Below, piece after piece: positions 23,927 through 61,228 of a DNA stretch of 64,000 bases; the stretch's first letter is position 1, and the number at the start of each line of letters is the position of its first letter. The DNA is taken from the NCBI RefSeq assembly GCF_003013695.1, contig NZ_CP027792.1, positions 1,260,501-1,324,500 on the forward strand, in the 5' to 3' direction. The stretch comes from Pulveribacter suum (GTDB taxonomy: Bacteria; Pseudomonadota; Gammaproteobacteria; Burkholderiales; Burkholderiaceae_C). The position numbers were made by a program, and so were the translations under genes. Under the pieces are notes generated by a model. It made no database searches. It saw only the letters and a list, made by a program, of their open reading frames with translations, and was not told the DNA's origin.

Positions 23927-23990
23927 TGGATGGCCTCCGTGCTGCGCACGGCGGTGCGAGCGTGCCTGGGGCGGCCCGGTGCGGCGCTCA
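23927..23990 (-). repeat. Family B stop-SD-start element, copy 1
   Basis: On the minus strand it begins ATGAGCGCCGCACCGGGCCG, where TGA is the maf stop, continues CCCCAGGCACGCTCGCACCG, and ends CAGCACGGAGGCCATCCA directly before the ATG of the methyltransferase. Two other copies (57611-57674 and 61165-61228) have the same layout. A short stem GTGC/GCAC sits next to the GGAGG. Confidence 0.75.
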
Positions 23991-24587
23991 TGGCAGCACC
24001 ACCCCGGCGGCGCGCAGCAGGCGGCAGGTGCGGATCAGCGGCAGGCCGATCAATGCCGTGGGGTCGTCGCTGTCGATGGCCTCCAGCAGGGCGATGCCCA
24101 GGCCTTCGCTCTTGGCGCTGCCGGCGCAGTCATACGGCTGCTCGGCGCGCAGGTAGCGCTCGATCTCGTCACCCTGCAGCGCGCGAAAGCGCACGTGCAC
24201 GGGAGCCAGATCGGCCTGCTCGAAGCCGCTGGCCTGGCAGGCCACGGCCACGGCGGTGTGAAAGACCACGGGCTGGCCGCTCATCGCGCGTAGCTGGGCC
24301 GCGGCGCGCTCGTGCGTGCCGGGCTTGCCCAGGGGCTGGCCGCCCAGGTCCGCCACCTGGTCGGAGCCGATGACCAGCGCATCCGGGTGCTGGCGGGCCA
24401 CGGCGCGCGCCTTGGCCAGGGCCAGGCGCCAGGCCAGGTCGCACGGAGCCTCGCCAGGCAGGGGGGTTTCGTCCACTTCGGGGGCCACGACATCGAACGC
24501 CAGGCCCAGGCGCTGCAGCAGTTCGCGCCGGTAGCGCGAGGTCGATGCGAGGATCACGGAGCGGGGCGCGGGGCTGTTTTTTGGCAT
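23988..24587 (-). CDS. maf: Maf-like nucleotide pyrophosphatase (YceF type)
   Basis: 199 residues. The Maf signature VILASTSRYRRELLQRLGL starts the fold, followed by VDETPLPGE, ALAKARAVA and the catalytic region VIGSDQVADLGG. The GSDQV form rather than A-D-T-V places it in the YceF subgroup, which hydrolyses 7-methyl-GTP, rather than the dTTP/UTP-specific YhdE group. C-terminal KSEGLGIALLEAIDSDDPTA is also typical. It is divergent from yceD-rpmF (26 bp between starts), a conserved arrangement. It probably has a house-cleaning role, hydrolysing modified nucleotides. Confidence 0.92.
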   Translation of the reverse strand: MPKNSPAPRSVILASTSRYRRELLQRLGLAFDVVAPEVDETPLPGEAPCDLAWRLALAKARAVARQHPDALVIGSDQVADLGGQPLGKPGTHERAAAQLRAMSGQPVVFHTAVAVACQASGFEQADLAPVHVRFRALQGDEIERYLRAEQPYDCAGSAKSEGLGIALLEAIDSDDPTALIGLPLIRTCRLLRAAGVVLP

Positions 24588-24613
24588 CGCCCGATTCTCT
24601 TACACTGCCCGGC

Positions 24614-25159
24614 ATGACCAAGGAATACTCCCCCGACCGGCTGGACGTCAAGGCCTTCGCGCAGGCCGGAGGCCACCTGTCCGGTCATGACACCCTGCTC
24701 AAGTACCGCCGCCTGGCCGAAGAGGCCCGGGGCCTGCACCCGGACCTGCGCGTGGACTGGTCCGCCGACGGCCAGGTGCGCACCACCCACGGCATGGGCG
24801 GCCAGGTCTGGCTGCATCTGAAAGTGCAAGCCACCGTGCCGCTGATGTGCCAGCGCTGCCTGCAGCCCGTGGACGTGCCGCTGGCGGTGGAGCGGGAGTT
24901 TCGTTTTGTGGCCGACGAGGCCACGGCCGAAGCGCTGGACGATGAGAGCGAGGAAGACCTGCTGGCCTTCAGCCGCGAGTTCAACCTGCGCGAGCTGATC
25001 GAAGACGAGCTGCTGATGGCGCTGCCCCTGGTGCCGCGCCACGAGGAATGCCCGGTGCCCGTGCAGCTGGACTCCAGCGATGAGGACTTCGAGGCCGCCA
25101 GCGCCAGCGTGCCCAACCCCTTCGCGGCCCTGGCCAGCCTGCGCAAGGACAAGCCCTGA
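24614..25159 (+). CDS. yceD: YceD/DUF177 protein (23S rRNA accumulation protein)
   Basis: 181 residues. The DUF177 signature is the CQRCLQPVDVPL segment with its Cys pair, followed by an acidic FNLRELIEDELLMALPLVP and a final PNPFAALASLRK. YceD proteins sit upstream of rpmF in most Gram-negative bacteria and are needed for 23S rRNA accumulation. I chose the ATG at 24614 because the longer frame upstream is antisense to the maf start. Co-transcription with rpmF is likely, although a strong -10 box lies in the 126-bp gap. Confidence 0.92.
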   Translation: MTKEYSPDRLDVKAFAQAGGHLSGHDTLLKYRRLAEEARGLHPDLRVDWSADGQVRTTHGMGGQVWLHLKVQATVPLMCQRCLQPVDVPLAVEREFRFVADEATAEALDDESEEDLLAFSREFNLRELIEDELLMALPLVPRHEECPVPVQLDSSDEDFEAASASVPNPFAALASLRKDKP

Positions 25160-25194
25160 CGACAGGCGCCTGGGCGGGGCGCTGCGGCCTGGGC

Positions 25195-25200
25195 TATAAT
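25195..25200 (+). promoter_or_regulatory. Perfect -10 box (TATAAT) upstream of rpmF
   Basis: TATAAT lies 85 bp before the rpmF ATG in a strongly GC-rich gap, followed by a T-rich leader with TTTTCCTTTTTCAATCC. No good -35 hexamer is seen at 16-18 bp. Probably an internal promoter for rpmF and the downstream fatty-acid genes. Confidence 0.5.
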
Positions 25201-25285
25201 TGCGGGCTTCGCGCGAAACCCCTCGTGTCTTTTATGGGCTGATCGCGTTTTCCTTTTTCAATCCTTTCAGACCCAGGAGCCGACC

Positions 25286-25468
25286 ATGGCTGTTCAGCAA
25301 AACAAGAAGTCTCCCTCCAAGCGCGGCATGCACCGCTCGCACAACGCCCTGAATGTGCCGGGCATCGCCGTGGAGCCCACCACGGGCGAAACCCACCTGC
25401 GCCACCACATCAGCCCCAACGGCGTCTATCGCGGCCGCCAGGTGCTCAAGAACAAGTCCGAAGCCTGA
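25286..25468 (+). CDS. rpmF: 50S ribosomal protein L32
   Basis: 60 residues, the normal length. [20 protein letters not shown] is the standard L32 start, and the rest ([18 protein letters not shown]) matches. The four zinc-ligand cysteines of some L32 proteins are absent, as is usual in proteobacteria. A GACCCAGGAGCC ribosome binding site precedes the ATG. It is followed by a strong hairpin, so plsX may depend on readthrough or its own promoter. Confidence 0.97.
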
Positions 25469-25501
25469 CGCGCGCGGCCCCACGCCGCCCTCCGTCTTCC
25501 G

Positions 25502-25538
25502 AAGGCCCGCGGCTACGAGTCCCGTAGCGCGGGCCTTT
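25502..25538 (+). terminator. Strong hairpin between rpmF and plsX
   Basis: Inverted arms AAGGCCCGCGGCTACG and CCGTAGCGCGGGCCTT form a long GC-rich stem with a short loop. The following TTTGCCGTTT is a poor U-tract, so termination is probably partial. Confidence 0.65.
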
Positions 25539-25605
25539 GCCGTTTCCGGCTGCCACAATGGCAGTCTTTTTTACCGGGCTGCGCCCTGCGGCCACTACCT
25601 TGCCG

Positions 25606-26661
25606 ATGATCACACTGGCTGTTGATTGCATGGGGGGCGACCACGGCCCCGACGTCACGCTGGCCGCGTGCCGCCAGTTCCTGGAAAGCCACCCCGACGC
25701 CCGGCTGTTGCTGGTCGGCCAGGCCGAGCAGCTCAAGGGGCTGGAGCACGAGCGTGCCGTGCATGTGCCGGCCTCCGAGGTGGTCGCCATGGACGACGCC
25801 GTGGAAGTCGCCCTGCGGCGCAAGAAGGACTCGTCCATGCGGGTGGCCATCGTCCAGGTCAAGGAGGGCAACGCGCAGGCGGCCGTCTCGGCCGGCAACA
25901 CCGGCGCGCTGATGGCGATTGCCCGCTACCTTTTGAAAACCCTGGACGGCATCGACCGCCCGGCCATTGCCACCCAGATCCCCAATGCCCGCGGCGGCGC
26001 CACCACGGTGCTGGACCTGGGCGCCAACGTGGACTCCAGCGCCGAGCACCTGCTGCAGTTCGCCGTCATGGGGTCAGCCCTGGTGTCGGTGCTCAACGAC
26101 GATCCGCAGCCCACCGTGGGCCTGCTCAACATCGGCGAGGAGGCCATCAAGGGCAGCGAGGAGATCAAGCGCGCCGGCGAGCTGCTGCGCGCGGCAGGCA
26201 GCGCCGGCGACCTGAACTTCATCGGCAACGTCGAGGGCAACGACATCTTCAAGGGCACGGCGCAGATCGTTGTGTGCGACGGCTTCGTCGGCAACGTGGC
26301 GCTGAAGACCATCGAGGGGCTGGCCAGCATGATCGGCGGCTTCATGAAGGAAGAGTTTTCGCGCAACCTGTTGACCAAGGCGGCGGCCGTGGTGGCGTAC
26401 CCGGTGCTGTCGGCGCTCAAGCGGCGCATGGACCACCGCCGCTACAACGGCGCGGCGCTGCTGGGCCTGCGCGGGCTGGTGTTCAAGAGCCACGGCTCGG
26501 CCGACGCCCTGGCCTTCGAGCAGGCGCTGTGCCGCGCGTATGATGCGGCCCGCAACAACCTGCTCGAGCGCGTGCGCGCACGGGTCGCGCACGCGGCGCC
26601 GCTGCTGGCCAGCGCCGACGCCCCTTCCACCGCCCCCGGCGCCACCTCGGCCCCCCTTTGA
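25606..26661 (+). CDS. plsX: Phosphate acyltransferase PlsX
   Basis: 351 residues. PlsX converts acyl-ACP and phosphate to acyl-phosphate, which PlsY uses to start phospholipid synthesis. The N-terminus [18 protein letters not shown] and the central [14 protein letters not shown] and [14 protein letters not shown] are diagnostic. I chose the ATG at 25606 because it places [12 protein letters not shown] at the N-terminus as in homologues; the frame upstream crosses the rpmF hairpin. The stop overlaps the fabH start by one base (TGATG). The C-terminus has a short Ala/Pro/Ser-rich tail. Confidence 0.96.
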
Positions 26662-27641
26662 TGACCGCACGCTATTCCCGCATTGTCGGCACGGGCAGCT
26701 TCCTGCCTGCGCGCCGAGTGAGCAACGACGACCTGGTGGCCCAGCTGGCGCAGCAGGGCCTGGAAACCTCCGACGAGTGGATCGTCGAGCGCACCGGCAT
26801 CCGCGCGCGCCACTTCGCGGAAAAAGACGTCACGGCCAGCGATCTGGCGCTGGAGGCTTCGCGACGCGCTCTGGCTGCCGCCGGCTGCGAGGCGGCGGAC
26901 ATCGACCTGATCATCGTCGCCACGTCCACCCCGGACATGGTGTTTCCCTCCACCGCCTGCATCCTGCAGCACAAGCTGGGCGTGGCTGGCTGCCCGGCGT
27001 TCGACGTGCAGGCCGTATGCAGCGGTTTTGTCTATGCGCTCACCGTGGCCGACGCCATGATCCGCGCCGGCACCTCGCGGCGGGCGCTGGTGGTGGGCTC
27101 GGAAGTCTTCAGCCGCATCCTGAACTTCCAGGACCGCACGACCTGCGTACTGTTCGGCGACGGCGCCGGCGCCGTGGTGCTCCAGGCCTCGGATGAGCCC
27201 GGCATCCTGGCCAGCGACCTGCACGCCGACGGCAGCCATGTGGGCATCCTCTGCGTGCCAGGCAACGTCTATGGCGGCGAGGTGCTGGGCAGCCCGCTGC
27301 TGACCATGGACGGGCAGGCGGTGTTCAAACTGGCCGTGGGCGTGCTCGAGAAGGCCGCCCGCGCCGTGCTGGACAAGGCTGGGCTGCAGGAGTCCGACAT
27401 CGACTGGCTGATCCCCCACCAGGCCAACATCCGCATCATGCAGAGCACGGCGCGCAAGCTCAAACTCTCCATGGACAAGGTCGTGGTCACCGTGGACCAG
27501 CACGGCAACACCTCGGCCGCCTCCATCCCCCTGGCGCTGGACCACGCCGTGCGTGCCGGCCAGGTGCAGCGCGGCCAGACCGTGATGCTGGAGGGCGTGG
27601 GCGGCGGCTTCACCTGGGGAGCGGTGCTCCTGAAAATGTAG
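26661..27641 (+). CDS. fabH: 3-oxoacyl-ACP synthase III
   Basis: 326 residues. FabH condenses acetyl-CoA with malonyl-ACP to start fatty-acid synthesis. The catalytic triad is complete: C120 in [14 protein letters not shown]253 in [11 protein letters not shown] and N283 in [10 protein letters not shown]. The N-terminus [20 protein letters not shown] is standard. The start ATG (26661) overlaps the plsX stop, implying translational coupling. The stop codon TAG is the first TAG of a family A repeat (AAAATGTAGCTGCC), so the repeat has probably reset the C-terminus; the final residues VLLKM are close to the normal end (LLxW). Confidence 0.96.
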
Positions 27642-27688
27642 CTGCCTGCGTTTGACTGGCAAGCGCTGGAGTCCTTTTTTGTTGTCAA
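27636..27688 (+). repeat. Family A repeat between fabH and fabD, copy 5
   Basis: Forward copy: AAAATGTAGCTGCCTGCG, then CAAGCGCTGGAGTCCTTTTT. It supplies the fabH stop codon and fills the only real gap between fabH and fabD. Confidence 0.75.
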
Positions 27689-27701
27689 TTCCGAACTGGT
27701 A

Positions 27702-28658
27702 ATGGCTCATACCTTTGCATTCGTATTTCCTGGCCAGGGCTCGCAGGCGGTCGGCATGCTGGACGCCTGGGGGCACCACCCCGCCGTGCGCGAGGCGCTG
27801 GCCGAAGCATCCGACGCCCTGAACGAGGACATCGGCGCCCTCATCGCCACCGGCCCCAAGGAGGCGCTGGCGCTGACCACCAACACCCAGCCGGTCATGC
27901 TGGTGGCCGGCGTGGCCGCGTGGCGCGCCTGGCGCGCCGAAGGCGGGCAGCTGCCCGTGGCACTGGCCGGGCATTCGCTGGGCGAATACTCGGCACTGGT
28001 CGCCGCCGGCGTGCTGACCCTGGCCCAGGCTGCGCCGCTGGTGCGCCTGCGTGCCGCCGCCATGCAGGAGGCCGTGCCCGTGGGCACGGGCGCCATGGCC
28101 GCCATCCTGGGTCTGCCGGCCGGCAAGGTCATCGAAGGCTGCCGCCAGGCGCAGGAGAGCTTCGGCGCCGGCTCGCCCGAGGTGGCCGAGGCGGTGAACT
28201 TCAACGACCCTGCGCAGACCGTGATTGCCGGCACCCAGGCCGGCGTGGACAAGGCCTGCGAAGTCCTGAAGGGCCTGGGCGCCAAGCGCGCGCTGCCGCT
28301 GCCGGTGTCCGCGCCGTTCCACTCCAGCCTGATGAAGCCCGCGGCCGAGAAGCTGCGCGCCGCGCTGGCCGGCACCCCGCTGGCCGTGCCCACCCTCCCT
28401 GTCGTGAACAACGTGGATGTGGCCGTGCAGCAAGATGCCGACGCCATCCGCGACGCGCTGTACCGCCAGGCGTTTGGCCCGGTGCGCTGGGTTGAATGCG
28501 TGCAGGCTTTGAGAGAGCGCTTCGGCGTGACCCACATCGTCGAGTGCGGCCCCGGCAAGGTGCTGGCCGGCATGACGAAGCGCATCGACCCCGAGCTGGT
28601 CGGCGCATCCCTGTACGACCCGGCAACGCTTGCCGAAACCAAGGAGCTGCTGGCATGA
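27702..28658 (+). CDS. fabD: Malonyl-CoA:ACP transacylase
   Basis: 318 residues. FabD loads malonate onto ACP. The start MAHTFAFVFPGQGSQAVGML is textbook; the nucleophile is S92 in ALAGHSLGEYSAL and the oxyanion/Arg part follows in PLVRLRAAAMQ. The catalytic His region is SAPFHSSLM. It overlaps fabG by 4 bp (ATGA). The same operon holds plsX, fabH, fabG, acpP and fabF. Confidence 0.96.
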   Translation: MAHTFAFVFPGQGSQAVGMLDAWGHHPAVREALAEASDALNEDIGALIATGPKEALALTTNTQPVMLVAGVAAWRAWRAEGGQLPVALAGHSLGEYSALVAAGVLTLAQAAPLVRLRAAAMQEAVPVGTGAMAAILGLPAGKVIEGCRQAQESFGAGSPEVAEAVNFNDPAQTVIAGTQAGVDKACEVLKGLGAKRALPLPVSAPFHSSLMKPAAEKLRAALAGTPLAVPTLPVVNNVDVAVQQDADAIRDALYRQAFGPVRWVECVQALRERFGVTHIVECGPGKVLAGMTKRIDPELVGASLYDPATLAETKELLA

Positions 28659-29398
28659 GCGCCCAGGAATCCACTCCCCGCATCGCCCTCGTCACCGGCG
28701 CCACGCGCGGCATCGGCGCGGCGATTGCCGCCGAACTGGCCGCGCGCGGCCACACCGTGATCGGCACCGCCACCACCGATGAGGGCGCCGAGCGCATCGG
28801 CGCCGCGCTGGCCGCCAGCGGGGGTCGCGGCGCGAAGCTGAACGTGACCGATGGCGCGGCCGTCGATGCGCTGATCGAGGCGATCGTCAAGGAGCACGGC
28901 GGCCTGCACGTGCTGGTCAACAACGCCGGCATCACCCGCGACACCCTGGCCATGCGCATGAAGGACGACGACTGGGATGCGGTCATCGACACCAACCTGA
29001 AGGCGGTGTTCCGCGCCAGCCGCGCGGCCATCCGCCCGATGATGAAGCAGCGCTTCGGGCGCATCGTCAGCATCACCAGCGTGGTCGGCGCCTCCGGCAA
29101 TCCTGGGCAGGCCAACTACGCGGCCGCCAAGGCGGGTGTGGCCGGCATGACGCGCGCGCTGGCGCGCGAGCTGGGCAGCCGCGGCATCACCGTCAACTGC
29201 GTGGCGCCCGGCTTCATCGCCACCGACATGACGGCCGAGCTGCCCGAAGAGCAGAAGAAGGCCTTGCGTGCGCAGATCGCCCTGGGCGAGCTGGGCCGGC
29301 CCGAGGACATCGCGCATGCGGTGGCCTATCTGGCCTCCGAAGGTGCCGGCTATGTGACGGGGCAGGAATTGCACGTCAATGGCGGCATGTACATGTAA
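28655..29398 (+). CDS. fabG: 3-oxoacyl-ACP reductase
   Basis: 247 residues, a classical short-chain dehydrogenase: nucleotide loop VTGATRGIGAAIA, NNAGITRD, the catalytic Ser in ITSVVGASGNPGQ, and the YAAAKAGVAGM Tyr-x-x-x-Lys pair. It reduces beta-ketoacyl-ACP with NADPH. The start overlaps the end of fabD. A gap of 105 bp before acpP carries a TAGAAT -10-like sequence, so acpP may have a private promoter, as expected for a very abundant protein. Confidence 0.96.
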   Translation: MSAQESTPRIALVTGATRGIGAAIAAELAARGHTVIGTATTDEGAERIGAALAASGGRGAKLNVTDGAAVDALIEAIVKEHGGLHVLVNNAGITRDTLAMRMKDDDWDAVIDTNLKAVFRASRAAIRPMMKQRFGRIVSITSVVGASGNPGQANYAAAKAGVAGMTRALARELGSRGITVNCVAPGFIATDMTAELPEEQKKALRAQIALGELGRPEDIAHAVAYLASEGAGYVTGQELHVNGGMYM

Positions 29399-29494
29399 TT
29401 GAAGCCTTTTGGCGCCGTAACTTCCGCACGGCAGGCCACTCAGGGGCACGACCCCGAAGCGGCTAGAATCGCGGATTCATTCACAACCCCTTGA

Positions 29495-29743
<249 letters not shown>

Positions 29744-29855
29744 TCTCCAGCCCTCTGCCGGATCCCCGGCCCGGTCAGGGCCGCTGGTTTCTTCTGGCTT
29801 GCGCACTGCCGCAGCAGCGACCCCGCGCATCCAATAGCTACAAGGTTTTTAACGC

Positions 29856-31100
<1,245 letters not shown>

Positions 31101-31156
31101 GCCGCGCCAGGGCGGCCGCGCCGCCTCGGCGGCCTGAGTTTCCTGTCGCCTGTCGC

Positions 31157-31654
31157 ATGCGTGGCCATCTGCTGCCCCCGCCGGCGCACCACGCAGTCGG
31201 ACCTTCTTCGGGCGTGTCCTGGGTTTTGGCGATGGGCAGCGCCGCGGGGCTGCTGGCCATCGGCTGCTGGCTGGCCTGGGGCTTGGGCAACACCCACCAG
31301 ATAGCCAGGGGCGCCGCGGGGCTGCTGCTATGGCTGGGCTGCACCGCTGCGGCCTGGCATTGGCAGCGCAGCCTCCCCCGCGGGCAGTTGCACTGGAATG
31401 GCGCAGATTGGCAACTGCAGCGATCCGGTGCGGTCCAGCCCGAACAGCTCGCGGGCCGGCCCGAGGTGCGCCTGGATTTGCAGTTCGCGCTGCTCCTGCA
31501 GGCACGCACCGGGCAGGGGCGACCCTGCTGGCTGTGGCTGCACCAGGGTGCTGCACCGCCCCTGCCGGGGGCCTGGCCGGCCATTCGCCGTGCGTTATAT
31601 TCCCGCGCCCCTGCAGCGCCTGCCCAGCCCTCCACCGACGAAGCCGCCTCCTGA
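31157..31654 (+). CDS. Hypothetical membrane protein between fabF and rpoE
   Basis: 165 residues from the ATG at 31157; a GTG at 31097 that overlaps the fabF stop would add 20 residues. There are two hydrophobic helices (VLAMGSAAGLLAIGCWLAWG and ARGAAGLLLWLGCTAAAWHW), then a soluble part with repeated Trp and Gln (GQLHWNGADWQLQRSGAV) and RPCWLWLHQGA. The pattern recalls the small membrane proteins of the YgfX type found near rpoE in other bacteria, but I cannot assign it. Location inside a conserved operon argues that it is real. Confidence 0.6.
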   Translation: MRGHLLPPPAHHAVGPSSGVSWVLAMGSAAGLLAIGCWLAWGLGNTHQIARGAAGLLLWLGCTAAAWHWQRSLPRGQLHWNGADWQLQRSGAVQPEQLAGRPEVRLDLQFALLLQARTGQGRPCWLWLHQGAAPPLPGAWPAIRRALYSRAPAAPAQPSTDEAAS

Positions 31655-31678
31655 GCGGCAGGCACAACGACCAACGAC

Positions 31679-32314: not shown

Positions 32315-32352
32315 CCAGACAGCCAGAACGGGGCCCCAAAACGGGTGAAACC

Positions 32353-33000: not shown

Positions 33001-33131
33001 GCTGCCGCTGCGGGCGTCCTCGCCCCGCAGGCGCTTGGGGGAACCAATGCGCCTGCTGCCTTTCCAAGTGGCCACTCATCCGCAGCACGCGGGCCGCAAC
33101 AACAAGACCTCTTTGACTGGAAAAGCCGCCG

Positions 33132-34882: not shown

Positions 34883-34888
34883 GAAGCT

Positions 34889-44497: not shown

Positions 44498-45667
44498 ATG
44501 ACACAACATTCCCCCCTGGTCATCGACGTGGCCGGCGCCACCCTGAGCGCCGACGACCACCGGCGCCTGGCGCACCCACTGGTGGGCGGCGTCATCCTGT
44601 TTTCGCGCAACTGGCAGCACCGCATGCAGCTGCTGGAGCTGACGGCCGCCATCAAGGCCGTGCGCGACGACCTGCTGATCTGCGTGGACCACGAAGGCGG
44701 GCGCGTGCAGCGCTTTCGCACCGACGGCTTCACCCACCTGCCGCCCATGCGCGCTTTCGGCGAGCTGTGGACTCAGGATGGCAAGGGCAGCAAACACCGC
44801 GAAGGCAGCGGCGCCCTGCGTGCCATGGACGCCGCCACGGCCGCCGGTTACGTGCTGGCCAGCGAGCTGCGCGCCTGCGGGGTGGATTTCTCGTTCACGC
44901 CGGTGCTGGACCTGGACTGGAAACATGAAGCCCCCACGCCAGCGCAAGCGCTGGCTGCCCCCCGAGGGGGCTCGGAAAGCTTGGGGCGGCCCGGCGCTTC
45001 CCGCAGCACCGTGATCGGCGATCGCGCCTTCCACAGCGACCCGCGCGTCGTCGCCATGCTGTCGCGCGCCCTCATGCACGGCCTGCTGCAGGCCGGCATG
45101 GCCAACTGCGGCAAACACTTTCCCGGCCATGGCCATGTGGCGGCCGATTCGCACACCGAAGTGCCGGTGGACCGGCGCAGCCTGACGGCCATCCTCAAGG
45201 ACGATGCCGCGCCGTATGCCTGGCTGTCCAGTGTGCTGACCAGCGTCATGCCGGCGCACGTCATCTACCCCAAGGTGGACAGCCGCCCGGCGGGTTTTTC
45301 AAGCAAGTGGCTGCAAGACATCCTGCGCACGCGCCTGCGCTTTGACGGCGCCATCTTCAGCGACGACCTGAGCATGGAAGGCGCGCGCCGCCTGGACGGG
45401 CAGCTGGTCGGCTACGCCGACGCCGCCGTGGCTGCGCTGCAGGCCGGCTGCGATCTGGTGCTGCTGTGCAACCAGAGCCTGGAGGGCGGCAGGGCAGTGG
45501 ACGAGCTGATCGACGGCCTGGCCGCCGCGGGTGCTGCCGGCCGCTGGCAGCCCAGCGAGGCGAGCGAAGCCCGCCGCGTGGCCCTGCTGCCGGAGACGCT
45601 GCCGCAGCCGTGGGAAGAGCTGATGGTGCAGCCGGCGTACATGCATGCGTTGGATTTGTTGCCGTAA
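44498..45667 (+). CDS. nagZ: Beta-N-acetylhexosaminidase NagZ with an inserted segment
   Basis: 389 residues, about 30-40 longer than usual. This cytoplasmic GH3 enzyme removes GlcNAc from anhydro-muropeptides in cell-wall recycling. Motifs: CVDHEGGRVQRF, the general acid/base loop GKHFPGHGHVAADSH, and the nucleophile region FSDDLSMEGA (Asp289/290). Between VLDLDW and STVIGDRAFHSDP, normally almost adjacent, there are about 27 extra residues (HEAPTPAQALAAPRGGSESL and on) encoded by repeat DNA at 44921-45005. The frame is kept and both flanks are intact, so the enzyme may still fold with a surface loop here, though the insertion is close to the active-site face. Confidence 0.93.
   Translation: MTQHSPLVIDVAGATLSADDHRRLAHPLVGGVILFSRNWQHRMQLLELTAAIKAVRDDLLICVDHEGGRVQRFRTDGFTHLPPMRAFGELWTQDGKGSKHREGSGALRAMDAATAAGYVLASELRACGVDFSFTPVLDLDWKHEAPTPAQALAAPRGGSESLGRPGASRSTVIGDRAFHSDPRVVAMLSRALMHGLLQAGMANCGKHFPGHGHVAADSHTEVPVDRRSLTAILKDDAAPYAWLSSVLTSVMPAHVIYPKVDSRPAGFSSKWLQDILRTRLRFDGAIFSDDLSMEGARRLDGQLVGYADAAVAALQAGCDLVLLCNQSLEGGRAVDELIDGLAAAGAAGRWQPSEASEARRVALLPETLPQPWEELMVQPAYMHALDLLP
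44921..45005 (+). repeat. In-frame repeat insertion inside nagZ
   Basis: GAAGCCCCCACGCCAGCGCA, then CCAGCGCAAGCGCTGG as a perfect palindromic hairpin, CCCCCCGAGGGGG as a second hairpin, and CTTGGGGCGGCCCGGCGC, which matches the reversed start of family B (TGGGGCGGCCCGG...). It looks like a composite of two repeat types. Its length is a multiple of three, so nagZ stays open. Confidence 0.7.
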
Positions 45668-50729: not shown

Positions 50730-50760
50730 AACGGTGTCTCGGTGTGAACGGAGGTGATGT

Positions 50761-50789: not shown

Positions 50790-50883
50790 CGGCAGAGGCC
50801 GCCAGCTTATCTGTCTGCAGGAAGTGGGCAACAGGGTAATTGCGGGTGTTGGCGTGCCAGACATTTTGCTAAACGGGCGCAGC

Positions 50884-51543: not shown

Positions 51544-51574
51544 GCGGTCAAAAAGGCGGAGGCGGGCCGCGGGT

Positions 51575-52588: not shown

Positions 52589-52621
52589 GGATGGCGGCGG
52601 GGAGATGAGCGGCGCCCTGGC

Positions 52622-54172: not shown

Positions 54173-54314
54173 AGGAAAGAGACAGAAGAACGCAGGGGGA
54201 AGGGGAGGGTGGCGGGGCGCTGGCCCGGCCCGCCGGCGCGGTGCGCGCTTTGGGACAATCGCGGGATTTTAGGCCCTGCCCGCGCGCTGGGCCCTTCATT
54301 GCAGCCAACCCATC

Positions 54315-55685
54315 ATGAAGATCACCATCATCGGCGCGGGCTATGTGGGCCTGGTCTCCAGCGCCTGCTTCGCGGAACTGGGCAATCACGTCGTCTGCGT
54401 GGAACGCGACGCTCTGCGCGTGGCGCAGCTGCAGTCCGGCGAGGTGCCGCTGCACGAGCCCGGCCTGCAGGAGCTGGTGGCGCGCAACCTGGCGGCCGGG
54501 CGCCTGGCCTTCGCCACCGATGTGGCGCTGGGCGTGCGCCATGCCCAAGTGCTGTTCATCGCCGTGGGTACGCCCATGGCGGCGGATGGCAGCGCCGACC
54601 TGACGCAGGTGCTGGAGGTGGCGCACGCCGTGGGCCGGCACGTGTCGCGCTTCCTGGTGGTGGCCAACAAGTCCACCGTACCGGTGGGCACGGCGCAGCG
54701 CGTGCACGACGCCATTGCCCAGGGGCTGGCCGCGCGCCAGCTGGCCCGCGTGCCGGCGTTCGCCGTAGCCTCCAACCCGGAATTTCTCAAGGAGGGCGCG
54801 GCGGTGGAGGACTTCATGCGCCCGGACCGCGTCGTCATCGGCGTGCCCGAGGGCCGCGCTGGCGAGCGCGCGGCCGGCCTGCTGCGCCGCGCCTACGCGC
54901 CCTTCAACCGCAACCGCGAGCGCATGGTGGTGATGGACGTGAAGAGCGCCGAGCTGGCCAAGTACGCCGCCAATGCCCTGCTGGCCACCAAGATCAGTTT
55001 CATGAACGACATGGCAGCGCTGGCCGACGCCGTGGGCGCCGACATCGAGCAGGTGCGCCGCGGCATCGGCTCGGACCGGCGTATCGGCTATGACTTCATC
55101 TACGCCGGCCTGGGCTACGGCGGATCGTGCTTTCCGAAGGACGTGGCCGCCCTGTGCCACACGGCGCGCGGCGCCGGCCAGCGCCTGCGCGTGGTCGAGG
55201 CTGTGCAGGCCGTCAACGACGCTCAGGCCGGGCGCTTCGTGCAGCGCCTGCTGCAGCATTTTGGCGGCTCGCTGGCGGGGCGGGTGATCGCCCTGTGGGG
55301 CCTCACATTCAAGCCCGGCACCGACGATGTGCGCGAGGCGCCCAGCCGCATTCTGGTGCGCCGGCTGGTGGCCGCCGGCGCGCGCGTGCAGGCGCACGAC
55401 CCGCTGGTGCATTCGCTGGAGCAGCTGATGGCGGGCGACCCGCCCGCCCGGCGCGCGCGGCTGGCGCCCCACGTGGCCTTTTGCGCCGGCCCGCTGCAGG
55501 CCGCCCAGGGCGCCGATGCGCTGGTGATCGCCACTGAATGGAAGATCTACCGCAGCCCCGACTTCGCCGCCCTGCGCCGGGCGCTGCGCGCGCCGGTCAT
55601 CTTCGACGGGCGCAACCTGTTCGACCCGGCCGAGCTCGGGCGCCAGGGGTTTTTCTACCAGGGCGTGGGGCGCGGGCAGCGGTGA
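54315..55685 (+). CDS. ugd: UDP-glucose 6-dehydrogenase
   Basis: 456 residues. It makes UDP-glucuronate from UDP-glucose with two NAD. The NAD-binding start KITIIGAGYVGLVSSACFAE, the catalytic C272 in GYGGSCFPKDVAAL, the substrate-binding SNPEFLKEGAAV and the C-terminal GLTFKPGTDDVREAPS are all present. It opens the polysaccharide operon. The stop overlaps the next start (GTGA) by 4 bp. Confidence 0.96.
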   Translation: MKITIIGAGYVGLVSSACFAELGNHVVCVERDALRVAQLQSGEVPLHEPGLQELVARNLAAGRLAFATDVALGVRHAQVLFIAVGTPMAADGSADLTQVLEVAHAVGRHVSRFLVVANKSTVPVGTAQRVHDAIAQGLAARQLARVPAFAVASNPEFLKEGAAVEDFMRPDRVVIGVPEGRAGERAAGLLRRAYAPFNRNRERMVVMDVKSAELAKYAANALLATKISFMNDMAALADAVGADIEQVRRGIGSDRRIGYDFIYAGLGYGGSCFPKDVAALCHTARGAGQRLRVVEAVQAVNDAQAGRFVQRLLQHFGGSLAGRVIALWGLTFKPGTDDVREAPSRILVRRLVAAGARVQAHDPLVHSLEQLMAGDPPARRARLAPHVAFCAGPLQAAQGADALVIATEWKIYRSPDFAALRRALRAPVIFDGRNLFDPAELGRQGFFYQGVGRGQR

Positions 55686-56857
55686 GGGACCTGGGCCAGG
55701 GCGTGCGCGCCGCCGTCGCCTTCACGCTGGCGCAGCACGGCGCCTTCTTCGCCTCGGCCTGGCTGCTGTCTGCCTGGCTGGGCGCCCAGCCGTTCGGCGC
55801 CTGGAGCCAGGCGCTGGCCCTGGCCAGCGTGGCGGCGGCGCTGGCCCCGCTGCGGCTGGAATACGCCGGCCAGTTGCAGGCGCGAGAGCGCCGCGCCCGG
55901 CGCCTGTTCGCCAGCGCGCGTCGGGTGGCGTGGACGACGGCGCTGGCCGCCGCCGTGCTGGCGCTGGCGGCGCTGGCCGGCGGCGCGCCGCACTGGCTGG
56001 CCGCCGGTGCGCTGGCTGTGGGGCCGCTGGCGCTGCTGCAGATCCGCGCCACCGAGCAGGCGCGCGCCCACCGCCTGGCCAGCGCCGCGGCCGCGCGGGC
56101 GCTGCCCGCCCTGCTGATGGTGCCGCTGCAGCTGCTGGCCTGCGCGCTGGAGCGGCCGGCCGCTGCCGCGTGGACCGTGCCGGCCGCGGCCTGGCTGGCC
56201 TGGGCGCTGTTGCCGCGCGCGCGGGCGTCGGTGCCTGGCTGGGACCGCCGCCTGCTGCGCGCCCACTGGCGCTTTGCCCGGGCGGAATGGACAGGCCTGG
56301 CCCTCAACACCGCGGCCAACCACGGCCAGGTGCTGGCCGTGGGCTGGATGGGCGGCGACGCGGCAGCCGGCGCCATCGCCCTGGGGCTGCGCGCGGCCAT
56401 GCTGCCCACCAGCCTGGTGGGCCTGGCCTGGGCGGACGATCTGCGCGCGCGCGTGGTGGCCGGCGCAGGGCGCGCGGCCGTGGCGGCGGCGCTGGTGCGC
56501 ATGGCGCTGCTGTCGCTGCCGGTGCACGCGGCGCTGATGGCGCTGGCGCCTGCCATGGTGCCCTGGCTCTTCCCGGCCCAGGGGCGGGAGCTGGTGTGGG
56601 TGGTGGCGGCGCTGGCGCCCCTGGGCGCCGTGCGGCTGGTGGCCAGCCCGGTGGCCTTCCTGCCGGCCTGGCGCGGCTGGCTGGGCACCAGCGTGCTGCT
56701 GCAAGGCCTGCTGTGCGCAGCCGCGCTGGGCGCGGCCGTGGCGGGCTACGGGTGGGGCGGCGTGGCGGGCGTGGCCGCGCTGTACGCGGCGGCGGCCTCG
56801 CTGGTCTATGCGGCGTACATTGCGCTGGCGCTGCGGGCCGTGCGGGCGGCTGCGTAG
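55682..56857 (+). CDS. Polysaccharide flippase-like membrane protein (Wzx/MATE-type)
   Basis: 391 residues from a GTG overlapping the ugd stop. About ten transmembrane helices, N-terminus VAFTLAQHGAFFASAWLLSA and later AEWTGLALNTAANHGQVLAV, a pattern of lipid-linked oligosaccharide flippases (PF01943/PF13440-type). The assignment is by topology and context, since these sequences diverge quickly. It would move undecaprenyl-linked repeat units across the inner membrane. No Wzy polymerase or Wzz/Wzc chain-length protein is in the window. Confidence 0.72.
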   Translation: MRDLGQGVRAAVAFTLAQHGAFFASAWLLSAWLGAQPFGAWSQALALASVAAALAPLRLEYAGQLQARERRARRLFASARRVAWTTALAAAVLALAALAGGAPHWLAAGALAVGPLALLQIRATEQARAHRLASAAAARALPALLMVPLQLLACALERPAAAAWTVPAAAWLAWALLPRARASVPGWDRRLLRAHWRFARAEWTGLALNTAANHGQVLAVGWMGGDAAAGAIALGLRAAMLPTSLVGLAWADDLRARVVAGAGRAAVAAALVRMALLSLPVHAALMALAPAMVPWLFPAQGRELVWVVAALAPLGAVRLVASPVAFLPAWRGWLGTSVLLQGLLCAAALGAAVAGYGWGGVAGVAALYAAAASLVYAAYIALALRAVRAAA

Positions 56858-56869
56858 AATGGCTGCGGT

Positions 56870-56938
56870 CTGTCAAAATTGATAGCTGCTGGCGCTTGAT
56901 GGGCGGGCGCTGGAGGCCGATTTGGCTTGAATTTTCTG
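56870..56938 (+). repeat. Family A repeat inside the polysaccharide operon, copy 11
   Basis: Forward copy: TCAAAATTGATAGCTGCTGG, CGCTTGATGGGCGGGCGCTG, GAGGCCGATTTGGC. It fills the 93-bp gap before the first methyltransferase gene, the only clear gap in the first half of the operon. Confidence 0.85.
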
Positions 56939-56950
56939 TAAAGGCAACGC

Positions 56951-57613
56951 ATGGGCAGGCAGGGCAGGGTGGGCGCGCAGCGCGAGGCGACGCTCGATCG
57001 TGGCCACTACGTGGGCGAGGCCAACTTCACGCCCGAGCATCTGCACTCCATGTCGTTCCAGGTGCTGCAGCTGCACGCCATGCGCCCACGCCGGGTGCTG
57101 GAGGTGGGCGTGGGCAACGGTTTCGTCTCCACCTTCCTGCGCCAGGCCGGCATCGAGGTGGTGACGGCCGACATCAATCCCGCGCTGGGCGCCGACCTGT
57201 GCGCGCCCCTGGGCCAGCTGCCGGCGCTGCTGGCGGGCGAATCGTTCGACGTGGTCTCGTGCTGCGAGGTGCTGGAGCACATCCCCTTTGAGCAGTTCGG
57301 CGCGCAGCTGGATGCACTGCGTGCGCTGGCCCCGCGGGCCTTCCTCTCGCTGCCGGGGCATTTCCCGTGGCTGGGGCTGGCCGGAAGGCTGGGCATCCAC
57401 AACCGCTTCGTGGACGTAGCGCTGGGCCTGCGCATCCCCTGCCGCAGGCGGCTGACCGATGGGCACTACTGGGAGATCGCCTCGCACTGGCGCACCCGCC
57501 GCGGTGCGCTGGAGGCGGCCATGCGCGAGCGCTGGGGCGCCGTGGACAGCGGGGTCTTCCCGATGCACCGCTATCACTACTACTTTCGCTGCGGCGGCGG
57601 CGCGCGGGCATGA
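56951..57613 (+). CDS. Class I SAM-dependent methyltransferase in polysaccharide operon
   Basis: 220 residues. The SAM-binding motif I VLEVGVGNGFVSTFL and motif II/acidic loop VVTADINPALGA are clear, with FDVVSCCEVLEHIPFEQF as the post-motif region. The acceptor is unknown; neighbours suggest a sugar or lipid-linked glycan. The stop TGA is the first codon of a family B element (ATGAGCGCC...), so the gene end is joined to the next gene by that element. Confidence 0.86.
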   Translation: MGRQGRVGAQREATLDRGHYVGEANFTPEHLHSMSFQVLQLHAMRPRRVLEVGVGNGFVSTFLRQAGIEVVTADINPALGADLCAPLGQLPALLAGESFDVVSCCEVLEHIPFEQFGAQLDALRALAPRAFLSLPGHFPWLGLAGRLGIHNRFVDVALGLRIPCRRRLTDGHYWEIASHWRTRRGALEAAMRERWGAVDSGVFPMHRYHYYFRCGGGARA

Positions 57614-57674
57614 GCGCCGCGCCGGGCCGTCCCACGCAAGCGCGCACCGCAGTGCCAAGCACGCAGGCTGCCCC
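57611..57674 (+). repeat. Family B stop-SD-start element, copy 2
   Basis: TGAGCGCCGCGCCGGGCCG from the stop codon of the methyltransferase, then CCCACGCAAGCGCGCACCGC, AGTGCCAAGCACGCAGGCTG and CCCC directly before the GTG of the glycosyltransferase. Here the SD-like core is degraded to GCAGG. Same layout as the copies at 23927 and 61165. Confidence 0.75.
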
Positions 57675-58718
57675 GTGAGCGCGCCGCCCCTGGCTGGCGG
57701 CGCAGGCACGCCGCAACTGGTCTCCGTCATCGCCCCCTGCCGCAACGAGCGCGCGCACATCGAGGCGTTTTGCGCCAGTGCGGCCCGCCAGCAGCTGCCG
57801 CCCGGCTGGCAGATGGAGGTGCTGATCGCCGATGGCGCCAGCGACGACGGCACGCGCGAGCTGCTGCAGCGCCAGTGCGAGCAGGACGCGCGCTTTCGCT
57901 GGCTGGACAACCCGGGGCGCATCGTCTCCAGCGGGCTCAACCGCTGCATTGCCGCCGCGCAGGGCGCGGTGATCGCCCGGCTGGACATCCACAGCGAATA
58001 CGCCCCCGACTACCTGGCCCAGTGCATCGCCGTGCTGCAGCAAACGGGCGCAGACAACGTGGGCGGCCCCTGGCGCGCCCAAGGCCACACGCCCATGCAG
58101 CGTGCCGTGGCCGCGGCCTTCCAGTCGCCCTGGGTGGCAGGCGGCGCGCGCTCGCGCGACCTCGGGTACGAGGGCGAGGTGGACACCGTCTATCTGGGTT
58201 GCTGGCCGCGCGCCACCTTTGCGCACTTCGGATGCTTCGACGAGCAGCTGGTGCGCAACCAGGACGACGAGCACAACCTGCGCCTGCGCCGCGCCGGTGG
58301 GCGCGTCTGGCAGAGCCCGCTCATCCGCAGCACGTACTACCCCCGCGCACGGCTGGGCCAGGTCTTTCGCCAGTACCAGCAGTACGGCTACTGGAAGCCC
58401 TTTGTCATTGCCAGACACGGCCAGGCCGCCGCCCTGCGCCACCTGGTGCCCGCCGCCTTTGTGCTGGCACTGATGGCGGGCGCCGGCCTGGCCCTGGCCT
58501 GGAGCCCCGGGCCCCTGGCCGCGCTGCTGCTGGCCTACAGCCTGCTGCTGGCGCTGGCCATCGCCGGCATGCGCGGCGTGGGGCCAGGCGTGGCCACGCG
58601 CGCAGTAGCGGTCATCGCGGCCTACCACCTGGGCTACGGCTGGGGCTCGCTGCGCGGCTGGTGGGACTGGTGGCGCCACCGCGCGCCGCAGTCGCGCTGG
58701 GGAGCGCTGACGCGATGA
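57675..58718 (+). CDS. Glycosyltransferase family 2, ExoA-like
   Basis: 347 residues, GTG start. The GT-A fold begins LVSVIAPCRNERAHIEAF and has the nucleotide-sugar site ADGASDDGT and the DxD-like RLDIHSEYAPDYL. GCWPRATFAHFGCFDEQLVR and NQDDEHNLRLRRAGG are typical of ExoA (succinoglycan) relatives. Two or three transmembrane helices lie in the C-terminal third (AFVLALMAGAGLALAW and ALLLAYSLLLALAIAG), so it is membrane-associated. The ATGA overlap with the next gene couples translation. Confidence 0.9.
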   Translation: MSAPPLAGGAGTPQLVSVIAPCRNERAHIEAFCASAARQQLPPGWQMEVLIADGASDDGTRELLQRQCEQDARFRWLDNPGRIVSSGLNRCIAAAQGAVIARLDIHSEYAPDYLAQCIAVLQQTGADNVGGPWRAQGHTPMQRAVAAAFQSPWVAGGARSRDLGYEGEVDTVYLGCWPRATFAHFGCFDEQLVRNQDDEHNLRLRRAGGRVWQSPLIRSTYYPRARLGQVFRQYQQYGYWKPFVIARHGQAAALRHLVPAAFVLALMAGAGLALAWSPGPLAALLLAYSLLLALAIAGMRGVGPGVATRAVAVIAAYHLGYGWGSLRGWWDWWRHRAPQSRWGALTR

Positions 58719-59404
58719 GCCAGGACGAGTCCAGCCGCGTGCGCCAGCGCTACGCAAGGCGTGATGCGGCCCTGGACGCACGGCGCTACGCCCTGACCGA
58801 TGCCTACGCCCTGGCCGCCTGGCAGGAGCGCCAGCGCGCCATGGTGCGCCTGCTGGCCGGGCGCCGCTTGGCGGACCTGTCGGTGCTGGAGGTGGGCTGC
58901 GGCAGCGGCGGCAATCTGCAAGACCTGATTCGCCTGGGCGCCACGCCCGCGCTGCTGCAGGGGCTGGAGCTGCAGGCCGAGCGGGCCGGGCAGGCGCGCG
59001 CCGCGCTGCCCGCCGCCTGCCGCATCCATGCCGCCGACGCGCTGCAGGCCGACGTGCCGGAGGCCAGCCAGGACCTGTTGCTGCTGTTCACCGTGTTTTC
59101 GTCCCTGTTGTCGGACGCCGCCCAGCAGGCGCTGGCCGCCCGCGCCTGGCACTGGCTGCGCCCGGGCGGGGCCGTACTGTGGCACGATTTCACCGTGGGC
59201 AACCCGCGCAACCCCGACGTGCGCGGCGTGCCCCTGGCCCGCGTGCGCGCGCTGCTGCCCCAAGGGCGCATGCAGGCGCGCCGCGTCACGCTGGCGCCAC
59301 CGCTCGGGCGCATGCTGTGCCGCGCCCATCCCGGCCTGTATGCCTGGGCCAACGCGCTGCCCTGGCTGCGTACCCACGTGCTGTGCCTGATCGAGAAACC
59401 CTGA
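58715..59404 (+). CDS. Class I SAM-dependent methyltransferase
   Basis: 229 residues. Motif I VLEVGCGSGGNLQDLI, then QGLELQAERAGQAR and the post-motif FTVFSSLLSDAAQQAL; RPGGAVLWHDFTVGNPRNPD resembles methyltransferases of polysaccharide and natural-product clusters. The protein's N-terminus is Arg-rich (RVRQRYARRDAALDARRY). It overlaps the glycosyltransferase by 4 bp. Target unknown. Confidence 0.85.
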   Translation: MSQDESSRVRQRYARRDAALDARRYALTDAYALAAWQERQRAMVRLLAGRRLADLSVLEVGCGSGGNLQDLIRLGATPALLQGLELQAERAGQARAALPAACRIHAADALQADVPEASQDLLLLFTVFSSLLSDAAQQALAARAWHWLRPGGAVLWHDFTVGNPRNPDVRGVPLARVRALLPQGRMQARRVTLAPPLGRMLCRAHPGLYAWANALPWLRTHVLCLIEKP

Positions 59405-59413
59405 CCTGCCGCC

Positions 59414-60574
59414 ATGCCATCGACCGACCCTTTCGTGCCCTTCGCCCTGCCCGACATCGGCCCGCAGGAGGAAGCCGAGGTGCTGGACACCCTGCGCTCG
59501 GGCTGGCTCACCACAGGCCCCAAGGTGGCGCGTTTCGAGAAAGCCTTTGCCGGCTTCCTGGGCGCTTCAGGCCTGCATGTGCTGGCGGTCAATTCCGCCA
59601 CCGCCGGCCTGCACCTGGCGCTGGATGCGCTGGGCATCGGCCCGGGCGACGAGGTCATCACCACCACCCACACCTTCACCGCCACGGCCGAGGTCATCCG
59701 CTACATGGGCGCCCAGCCGGTGCTGGTGGACATCGAGCCGCATACCCTGTGCATCGATCCGGCCCAGGTGGCGGCGCGCATCACGCCGCGCACACGCGCC
59801 CTGATCGTCGTGCACTTCGGCGGGCGCAGCGCCGACATGACGGCCCTGCTGGCGTTGGCGCGTGCCCACGGCCTGCGTGTGGTCGAGGACGCGGCCCATG
59901 CGCTGCCGGCCACGCACGCCGGGCAGCTGGTCGGCACCCTGGGCAGCGACGCCACCGTCTTCAGCTTTTATGCCAACAAGACCATGACCACCGGCGAGGG
60001 CGGCATGCTGGTGCTGCGTGACGAGACCCACGCCCGGCGCGCCCGCGCCATGCGGCTGCACGGCATCGACCGCGACGCCTTCGCCCGCTTCAACACCGCC
60101 GTGCCGGCCTGGCGCTACGACGTGGTGGCGCCGGGCTTCAAGTACAACCTGACGGACATCGCCGCCGCCATCGGCCTGGCGCAGCTGCCCCGGCTGCGGG
60201 CCATGCAGCAGCGGCGTGCCGAGATCGCCGCGGCCTACCGCGAGGCCCTGGCCGACCTGCCGCTGGCCTTGCCGCCGCTGCCGGCCCCGGGCGATGTGCA
60301 CGCCTGGCACCTGTTTGCCGTGCAGGTGCACGGCATGGCGCGCGACGCCTTCATCGACGCCATGTTCGCCCAGGGCATCGGCATGAGCGTGCACTACGTG
60401 CCCCTGCACCAGATGAGCTACTGGCGCCAGTCCTGCGGCCTGGACGCGGGCGACTTCCCCGTCAGCCAGGCGGTGTATGAGCACACCGCCTCGCTGCCGA
60501 TCTACAGCCGCATGGACGACGCCACGGTGCAGCGCGTGGCTGCGGCCGTGCGCCGTGTGCTGCCGGGCGCATGA
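59414..60574 (+). CDS. DegT/DnrJ/EryC1/StrS aminotransferase (WbgX/PglE-like)
   Basis: 386 residues, PLP-dependent. It transfers an amino group to a 4-keto-6-deoxy nucleotide sugar. The start FALPDIGPQEEAEVLDTLRS and GWLTTGPKVARFEKAFA are standard; the PLP Lys is K189 in SFYANKTMTTGEGGML, and the pocket has NSATAGLHLALDALGIGPGD and VVEDAAHALPA. The next genes are a priming sugar transferase and a 4,6-dehydratase, exactly the partners needed to make and attach a 4-amino-sugar. The product sugar is not determined (FucNAc4N or bacillosamine precursor are likely). Confidence 0.9.
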   Translation: MPSTDPFVPFALPDIGPQEEAEVLDTLRSGWLTTGPKVARFEKAFAGFLGASGLHVLAVNSATAGLHLALDALGIGPGDEVITTTHTFTATAEVIRYMGAQPVLVDIEPHTLCIDPAQVAARITPRTRALIVVHFGGRSADMTALLALARAHGLRVVEDAAHALPATHAGQLVGTLGSDATVFSFYANKTMTTGEGGMLVLRDETHARRARAMRLHGIDRDAFARFNTAVPAWRYDVVAPGFKYNLTDIAAAIGLAQLPRLRAMQQRRAEIAAAYREALADLPLALPPLPAPGDVHAWHLFAVQVHGMARDAFIDAMFAQGIGMSVHYVPLHQMSYWRQSCGLDAGDFPVSQAVYEHTASLPIYSRMDDATVQRVAAAVRRVLPGA

Positions 60575-61167
60575 AACGGGCGCTGGACATCGCCGCGGCC
60601 CTGATGGCGCTGGCGCTGCTGTGGCCGCTGCTGCTGGCGCTGGCGCTGGCCGTGCGGCTGGATTCGCCAGGGCCGGCGCTGTTTCGCCAGGAGCGCGTGG
60701 GCCTGCACGGCAGGCCGTTTCGCATCCACAAGTTCCGCACCATGCGCACGGGCGAAAGTGGCCCGCTGGTCACCGCCTCGGGGGATGCCCGCATCACCCG
60801 CGTGGGCCGCGTGCTGCGCCGCCACAAGCTGGACGAGCTGCCGCAGCTGCTGGACGTGCTGCGCGGCCGCATGAGCCTGGTGGGGCCGCGCCCGGAGGTG
60901 GCACGCTACATGGCGCTGTACCCGGCCGAGGCGCGCAGCGTCATCCTGTCCGTGCGCCCCGGCCTGACCGACCCGGCCAGCATCGCCTTCCGCCGCGAGG
61001 AGGAGCTGCTGGCCGCGTCCCCCGAGCCCGAGCGCACCTACATCGACACGCTCATGCCGCTCAAGCAGCGCTACTACCTGGACTACGTGCGCACGCAAAG
61101 CCTGCGGGGCGACCTGGCCATCGTGCTGCGCACCGCTGCTGCGCTGCTGGGCGGAGGCGGGGCATGA
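60571..61167 (+). CDS. Undecaprenyl-phosphate sugar phosphotransferase (priming, PglC/WbgY-like)
   Basis: 198 residues, the small form of the bacterial sugar transferase family, with one N-terminal membrane segment (ALLWPLLLALALAVRLDSPG). Motifs: GPALFRQERVGLHGRPF, KFRTMR, RVGRVLRRHKLDELPQL and MSLVGPRPEV, which hold the Asp-Glu catalytic dyad and phosphate-binding residues. It moves a sugar-1-phosphate from UDP to undecaprenyl phosphate, starting glycan synthesis. ATGA overlap with the aminotransferase. The stop TGA opens a family B element leading to the dehydratase. Confidence 0.93.
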   Translation: MKRALDIAAALMALALLWPLLLALALAVRLDSPGPALFRQERVGLHGRPFRIHKFRTMRTGESGPLVTASGDARITRVGRVLRRHKLDELPQLLDVLRGRMSLVGPRPEVARYMALYPAEARSVILSVRPGLTDPASIAFRREEELLAASPEPERTYIDTLMPLKQRYYLDYVRTQSLRGDLAIVLRTAAALLGGGGA

Positions 61168-61228
61168 GTGCCCGCCCGGCCGCTCCAAAGGGGGCTTGCG
61201 CCGCAGTGCAAAGCACGGAGGCGACCCC
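61165..61228 (+). repeat. Family B stop-SD-start element, copy 3
   Basis: TGAGTGCCCGCCCGGCCGC from the stop codon, then TCCAAAGGGGGCTTGCGCCG, CAGTGCAAAGCACGGAGGCG and ACCCC directly before the ATG of the dehydratase. A GTGC-AAA-GCAC stem adjoins the GGAGG. Confidence 0.8.

Follow-up and report, generated by a model that had tools for sequence, protein, structure and literature searches.

The window analysed here, a stretch of 64,000 nucleotides from Pulveribacter suum (contig NZ_CP027792.1, positions 1,260,501 to 1,324,500), contains three copies of a short dispersed element, each placed between two neighbouring genes (Table 1). An earlier note on this DNA had described a ~64-bp element that begins at a stop codon and carries its own ribosome binding site (RBS), and direct reading of the sequence finds the three copies where that note had placed them. 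Each copy is exactly 69 nt long, from ATGA to (A/G)TGA, and consists of a single open frame of 22 codons running from the first ATG to the terminal TGA. This mini open reading frame (mini-ORF), which the note did not mention, shares 4 nt with each of the two neighbouring genes: in all three copies the upstream gene stops at the TGA of the first ATGA, as the note had it, and the downstream gene starts at the NTG of the terminal NTGA. The RBS is present; what does not stand is a ~64-bp element with an RBS alone, since the key part is the closed mini-ORF that overlaps both neighbours by 4 nt. The Shine-Dalgarno (SD) motif GGAGG is kept in copies 1 and 3 and replaced by GCAGG in copy 2, in agreement with the note, and the genes joined are indeed unrelated according to Pfam (Maf and TP_methylase; Methyltransf_23/11 and Glycos_transf_2; Bac_transf and Polysacc_synt_2).

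Table 1. Copies of the element and adjoining genes in the window. Element coordinates include the whole overlapping ATGA and the terminal (A/G)TGA.
Feature	Position	Strand	Basis
Copy 1, 69-nt mini-ORF element; ATGA overlapping maf stop to ATGA overlapping TP_methylase gene start	23923..23991	-	sequence; empty site in relatives
Copy 1, hairpin 2 region; SD GGAGG at 23934-23938	23933..23955	-	sequence; covariation on 64 copies
Copy 2, 69-nt mini-ORF element; ATGA (methyltransferase stop) to GTGA (glycosyltransferase start)	57610..57678	+	sequence
Copy 2, hairpin 2 region; GCAGG in SD position at 57663-57667	57646..57668	+	sequence
Copy 3, 69-nt mini-ORF element; ATGA (sugar transferase stop) to ATGA (Polysacc_synt_2 gene start)	61164..61232	+	sequence; family match E 4.4e-21
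Copy 3, hairpin 2 region; SD GGAGG at 61217-61221	61200..61222	+	sequence
Maf-like gene, upstream of copy 1	23988..24587	-	Pfam PF02545
TP_methylase gene, downstream of copy 1	23153..23926	-	Pfam PF00590
Methyltransferase gene (Methyltransf_23/11), upstream of copy 2	56951..57613	+	Pfam PF13489/PF08241
Glycosyltransferase family 2 gene (Glycos_transf_2), GTG start, downstream of copy 2	57675..58718	+	Pfam PF00535
Bacterial sugar transferase gene (Bac_transf), upstream of copy 3	60571..61167	+	Pfam PF02397
Polysacc_synt_2 gene (nucleotide-sugar dehydratase type), downstream of copy 3	61229..63058	+	Pfam PF02719

Junction ends, reading frame and hairpins

The majority form of the element is composed of the ATGA, a hairpin 1, a hairpin 2 that includes the SD, a free spacer of 7 nt and the NTGA, and the unit measures 65 bp. 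The 5' arm of hairpin 1 begins within the stop codon (GAGCCCC.../...GGGGCTC in the majority form). Hairpin 2 reads ACC GCA GTGC GNA GCAC GGA GGT, and its outer pairs take the last two bases of GGAGG.

The element was followed beyond the window in 278 raw matches, from which 34 duplicates of identical context and 13 matches cut by the ends of loci were removed, leaving 231 distinct copies. An NTGA is found at both ends of 212 of them. At the 5' end its first base is A in 191 copies, G in 20 and T in one; at the 3' end it is A in 147, G in 59, T in four and C in two. Copy lengths range from 57 to 96 nt and are divisible by three in 189/212 copies, the most frequent being 69 nt (126 copies) and 66 nt (49 copies). 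The terminal TGA is the exact stop of the mini-ORF in 179/212 copies, and in 10 the stop comes one codon earlier. As the copies share descent, lengths were also counted by single-linkage clusters: the majority length is divisible by three in 48/57 clusters at an edit distance of at most 6, in 9/11 at 10 and in 6/6 at 14. The bias towards stop/start junctions that the earlier note proposed to look for is present: both neighbours are open over at least 80 codons in overlapping frames at 140/212 copies, versus 8.4% of 9,689 background (A/G)TGA sites taken from the loci of the named genomes, element sites included. In two plasmid records the annotation agrees with this anatomy, the upstream coding sequence (CDS) ending at base 4 of the element and the downstream CDS starting at base 66, with nothing annotated in the 61-nt gap between them. 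Some copies differ in size or sequence. One of 93 nt (L046) and two of 96 nt carry about 27 extra nt, their length still being divisible by three, and two copies of 84 nt (L049 and L084, both in genome G056), with a hairpin 1 of 10 bp and a 3' half that differs, run from ATGA to ATGA and are closed in frame.

The GGAGG motif is present in 188/212 copies, and its distance to the start codon is 7 nt (139 copies) or 8 nt (41 copies), which together make 180. A portable RBS would make use of such an arrangement, as this SD would work uncoupled; the downstream gene would then start afresh from GGAGG and the mini-ORF would be a by-product of the insertion between stop and start. We regard this explanation as unlikely: a free RBS needs neither a length divisible by three, nor an exact closure, nor the compensated frames described below, and the end of the SD is paired within a conserved hairpin.

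The compensated frames appear when hairpin 2 is used as a landmark. A peptide that mattered would require hairpin 2 to be read in a single frame. The 4-bp stem is perfect in 196 copies, of which 140 place hairpin 2 in frame 0 before a tail divisible by three; in 33 it lies in frame 2 and the tail is longer by one base, and in three it lies in frame 1 and the tail is shorter by one base. Hairpin frame and tail length are in phase in 176 copies and out of phase in 20. The frame-2 copies form nine clusters at an edit distance of at most 6 and merge into one at 10, which indicates that their independent origins are few or one. In the 100 nearest pairs of 69-nt copies, differences are spread over the three codon positions without bias (124, 132 and 114), and their synonymous fraction is 0.332, with 0.300 expected blind to the code. 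The even codon positions and the compensated frames together mean that closure is kept and the peptide is not. A family of small genes dispersed in operons and coding for a functional peptide would account for a single frame being open across most copies, and within the commonest subfamily the peptide is indeed much the same; given the codon-position distribution, the near code-blind synonymous fraction and the 36 closed copies that read hairpin 2 in other frames, a functional peptide is unsupported and highly improbable.

The two hairpins were evaluated on an alignment of 64 copies. The proposed structure has 87.0% of paired cells, against 20.4 to 51.1% in versions of it slid along the alignment, and two-sided changes occur in 8/13 pairs versus 3.0 in shuffles. 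Pairing reaches 98.0% in the inner and 90.6% in the outer stem of hairpin 2; this hairpin, in which the last bases of the SD are paired, shows compensatory changes. Hairpin 1 shifts register between subfamilies and was also searched for without alignment. A stem of at least 6 bp is found in 94 of the 193 usable unique copies (of 201), whereas arms dealt anew give 44.2 on average and 57 at most, and the observed mean stem length is reached in 0/500 of such draws. Two covarying hairpins could also belong to a structured element of regulation or RNA processing (an attenuator, a site for RNase or Rho, an internal promoter) whose place at overlaps would be secondary, and mycobacterial repeats in senX3-regX3 are said to be able to drive downstream expression in the available part of PMC4213456. 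We consider this very improbable, as neither processing nor promoter activity calls for a closed frame or for exact 4-nt overlaps, and no Rfam family corresponds to the element. No family of Rfam 15 has a match above its gathering threshold in the window (0 matches), and at E<=1 nine element-bearing loci gave a single sub-threshold match, located outside the element.

Empty sites, insertion and tandem copies

The junction of copy 1 was compared in relatives after placing maf by tblastn. The gene was found in 60/60 genomes of 60 genera, and the best 30 genomes with loci, own genome included, were retained. In the 29 others the junction is a bare ATGA in 22 and a bare GTGA in two (L127 and L129, the latter also readable as GTGATG), that is, bare in 24; one has a TGATG, three have another arrangement, and in L144 a GTGA is followed by another long repeat. 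Only the genome of P. suum carries the element at this site among the 30 compared. The repeat of L144 (genome G046, of another genus) fills the same stop/start junction as copy 1 and contains a CCCCCTCGGGGGGCAG hairpin.

Closer comparisons come from sister genomes. At one junction of genome G075 (contig C41, L059) the flanks are 97-98% identical to those of its congener G257 (L287), with the 65 bp present in G075 and a bare ATGA in G257. At a second G075 junction (L028), G257 has a bare ATGA (flank 87.5%) and G180 a TGATG; three further G075 junctions are filled in G257 as well. In total 14 junction pairs were compared, four of which (L305, L313, L297, L309) gave no usable alignment. Three are filled (L300, L304, L308), and the seven element-free junctions comprise three bare ATGA (L287, L293, L296), two bare GTGA (L290, L292), one TGATG (L291) and one other spacer (L301). 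The junction of L070 is a bare GTGA in two relatives. At the junction of L003, another copy of the P. suum genome, a diverged copy is found in G004, and G002 has a bare ATGA followed by sequence that may be an eroded copy. Such filled and empty junctions, with a diverged copy among them, indicate insertions of different ages. The element has therefore inserted into a bare 4-nt stop/start overlap, bringing its own SD, as the earlier note had expected from orthologous loci lacking it: relatives without the element mostly show the bare ATGA. The note had also named, as what would overturn it, an eroded coding sequence of the upstream genes. This alternative, extended to the downstream genes and given practically no weight here, is refuted by the empty sites, the bare ATGA of sister genomes among them, and by the presence of the same element between unrelated gene pairs.

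Tandem neighbours overlap by exactly 4 nt in 29/29 cases, distributed over 21 loci. Copies resemble each other more within genomes (identity 0.830) than between them (0.724), a difference reached by 0/2000 shuffles (55 copies, 17 genomes); when G104, which has the highest copy number, is left out, the values are 0.794 and 0.715, again with 0/2000 shuffles (47 copies, 14 genomes). Y1 transposases (PF01797), candidates for moving the element as transposases of the REP-associated tyrosine transposase (RAYT) type, occur in 15/20 genomes examined. They were rejected as the mover, as no clean link between Y1 presence and the element emerged in these 20 genomes.

Searches, copy number and taxonomic distribution

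In the window alone, loose patterns are not above shuffles (14 matches with 10.67 expected, and 14 with 9.44 expected), so the significance of the element rests on genome and family searches. With copy 2 as blastn query, the own genome yields 17 matches at E<=1, including copy 1 at E 4.6e-13; copy 3 is absent from them. Of the 15 matches beyond copy 2 itself and copy 1, 14 are unrelated as judged from their sequences and one, L003, is a true copy. Copy 3 belongs to the family, since as query it finds an 88% match in another genus (E 4.4e-21); its blastn search detected a match in 29/150 genomes of the bacterial family. A covariance model (R1) was built from the 64 copies, window copies included. 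In the own genome (one contig, 3.36 Mb) a covariance model search detects five copies, namely the three of the window, whose recovery is not independent as they sit in the seed, together with L003 and L020.

At E<=0.001, R1 has a match in 190/299 genomes and 100/141 genera of the bacterial family. About 17 candidates per genome were scored with R1, and high counts per genome are lower bounds. A strict pattern detects 53 sites in G104, 18 in G099 and one to nine in six other genomes, and the reversed pattern none in all eight. An exact pattern occurs in at least 119 stretches of the named genomes. In G104, where copy number is very high, arrays of the element lie at contig ends and may break the assembly of that genome. 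Among the matches listed, most come from Variovorax, Hydrogenophaga, Xenophilus, Rhodoferax, Ramlibacter, Acidovorax, Aquabacterium, Rubrivivax, Rhizobacter and similar genera; also among them are some unclassified metagenome-assembled genomes, two labelled Gammaproteobacteria and one labelled Pseudomonas. The last (L182), which matches only positions 34-60 of the model and has no NTGA ends, was taken as chance or contamination. In a sample of the order, 6/120 genomes have a match, four of these being weak matches outside the family: by sequence, G328 and G373 carry the short element or a near form, and G415 and G386 a longer repeat that shares hairpin 1. Four plasmid records (Variovorax and Diaphorobacter) also carry the element.

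Relation to known repeats and interpretation

Mycobacterial interspersed repetitive units (MIRUs) insert as a rule into a 'DTGA' overlap. The available part of PMC12548453, which like PMC4213456 cites Supply et al. (1997) for them, presents them as short, apparently mobile repeats of "many mycobacteria" whose insertion sites are start codons and whose own ORF is coupled at -4 nt, and discusses both RNA unfolding and reinitiation for the passage of ribosomes over such overlaps. In that of PMC4213456, MIRUs are confined to M. leprae and the M. tuberculosis complex, and those of senX3-regX3 measure 77 and 53 bp, the unit described here measuring 65 bp. The earlier note knew of no described element with such a property; on this point it does not hold, the MIRUs being so described in the accessible text of PMC12548453. 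The likeness, as far as these sources go, extends to short dispersed repeats at the starts of coupled genes, tandem copies, an ORF with -4 nt coupling and the view that the host gene is thereby spared. Our element is likewise short and dispersed between operon genes (57-96 nt, with 29 tandem pairs in 21 loci), contains a small ORF overlapping by 4 nt (179/212 exact, 10 one codon short) and was inserted into bare NTGA overlaps at the maf and sister-genome junctions. The hosts differ: those named for the element are Burkholderiales, which belong to another phylum than mycobacteria. By analogy the element seems to behave as a MIRU does, yet we do not class it among the MIRUs, the comparison being of descriptions and not of sequences. 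The principle of a coupled mini-ORF is known from MIRUs; new are the occurrence in Burkholderiales, the frame kept without the peptide, the covarying hairpin that pairs the SD and the near-identical empty sites. No description of such a repeat from Burkholderiales was found in the literature searched, most subscription journals lying outside the search.

The interpretation that we favour, with a probability of about 0.78, is that the element is a dispersed, non-autonomous, MIRU-like cassette for translational coupling in Comamonadaceae-type Burkholderiales. The 65-bp unit sits right before the NTGA of a 4-nt overlap and turns the junction into ATGA, mini-ORF and NTGA. A ribosome terminating at the first TGA would restart on the overlapping ATG and translate about 21 codons, unfolding the hairpin in which the last bases of the SD are paired; it would then terminate on the terminal TGA and restart on the NTG that overlaps it, the start of the downstream gene. 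What the peptide looks like would not matter, whereas the frame is kept, together with a foldable stem and an SD placed 7-8 nt ahead of the start. Judging from this anatomy, translation of the operon is probably preserved across the element, which would be nearly neutral for the operon and would spread by transposition. The earlier reading of an insertion carrying its own RBS largely holds.

Several observations weigh against the coupling cassette. NTGA is missing at one or both ends in 19/231 distinct copies, and among the 212 others the mini-ORF reads through in 21 and stops early in two. The double 80-codon test fails in 72/212 copies, tandem neighbours and short genes being among the failures. 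The own-genome copy L003 measures 70 nt, is out of frame and ends in CTGA, and L070, which has lost its terminal NTGA, reads into the downstream gene and extends it in frame at the N-terminus. Two other plasmid records, with an incomplete gene table, list no same-strand upstream gene adjoining the element, and one of them has an IS110 transposase on the opposite strand. Only 77.4% of the hairpin 1 cells are paired (64 copies), single-sequence folding of eight copies is unexceptional (z -2.37 to +1.41), and RNAalifold unaided predicts hairpin 2 only. Finally, no transposase could be linked to the element in the 20 genomes, where Y1 is absent from the multi-copy genomes G099, G229 and G201 and present in element-free ones.

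Other classes of small repeats are less similar. The repetitive extragenic palindromic (REP) sequences and their paired hairpin form (REPIN), moved by RAYT/Y1 enzymes, are also short dispersed hairpin repeats according to the accessible parts of PMC3733652, PMC3116915 and PMC2817692, and Y1 proteins occur in most of the 20 genomes examined, as given above. In contrast, our element is placed at a stop/start overlap in the orientation of the genes, and the three multi-copy genomes just named have no Y1. The consulted part of PMC3733652 contains no occurrence of Acidovorax, Delftia, Comamonas, Variovorax or Burkholderiales. Miniature inverted-repeat transposable elements (MITEs) and other small mobile repeats are likewise small and non-autonomous, some having open frames that fuse to genes (review PMC2229807, available part). 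The element has no terminal inverted repeats, its ends being direct (ATGA...NTGA), and it is mostly coupled to genes rather than fused.

It is conceivable, though we would not bet on it, that mobile mini-cistrons targeting translation junctions evolved at least twice, in different phyla. The Burkholderiales version would then be a tunable coupler with a free peptide, a fixed frame and the SD in a hairpin, in which tandem stacking by shared NTGA would determine how much downstream protein is made relative to the upstream one, and the mover would be an enzyme or process recognising NTGA in one orientation. If so, the behaviour of MIRUs would be no mycobacterial peculiarity. The family offers about 230 natural copies, empty sites in sister genomes, a series of tandem copy numbers and natural exceptions to the frame, in hosts far easier to work with, so that the passage of -4 nt overlaps becomes testable by natural variants. 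For annotation, the element shows as a feature-free gap of 61 nt in the two plasmid records mentioned above.

The longer Burkholderiales repeat that shares hairpin 1 is also present in the window, at 44915-45010 on the minus strand. It has the same hairpin-1 loop CCGGGCCGCCCCAAG, followed by a CCCCTCGGGGGGCAG hairpin, and differs from the element in having no hairpin 2, SD or NTGA end. It lies inside a plus-strand ORF (44498-45667) coding for a Glyco_hydro_3 protein with two Pfam stretches, and looks like an in-frame, antisense insertion within this gene. The own genome has five further matches to it, of which two are separated by 85 nt. Elsewhere in the same genome, the near-identical stretches C1:2418136-2421172 (L008) and 2598035-2601071 (L007) represent a repeat unrelated to the element.

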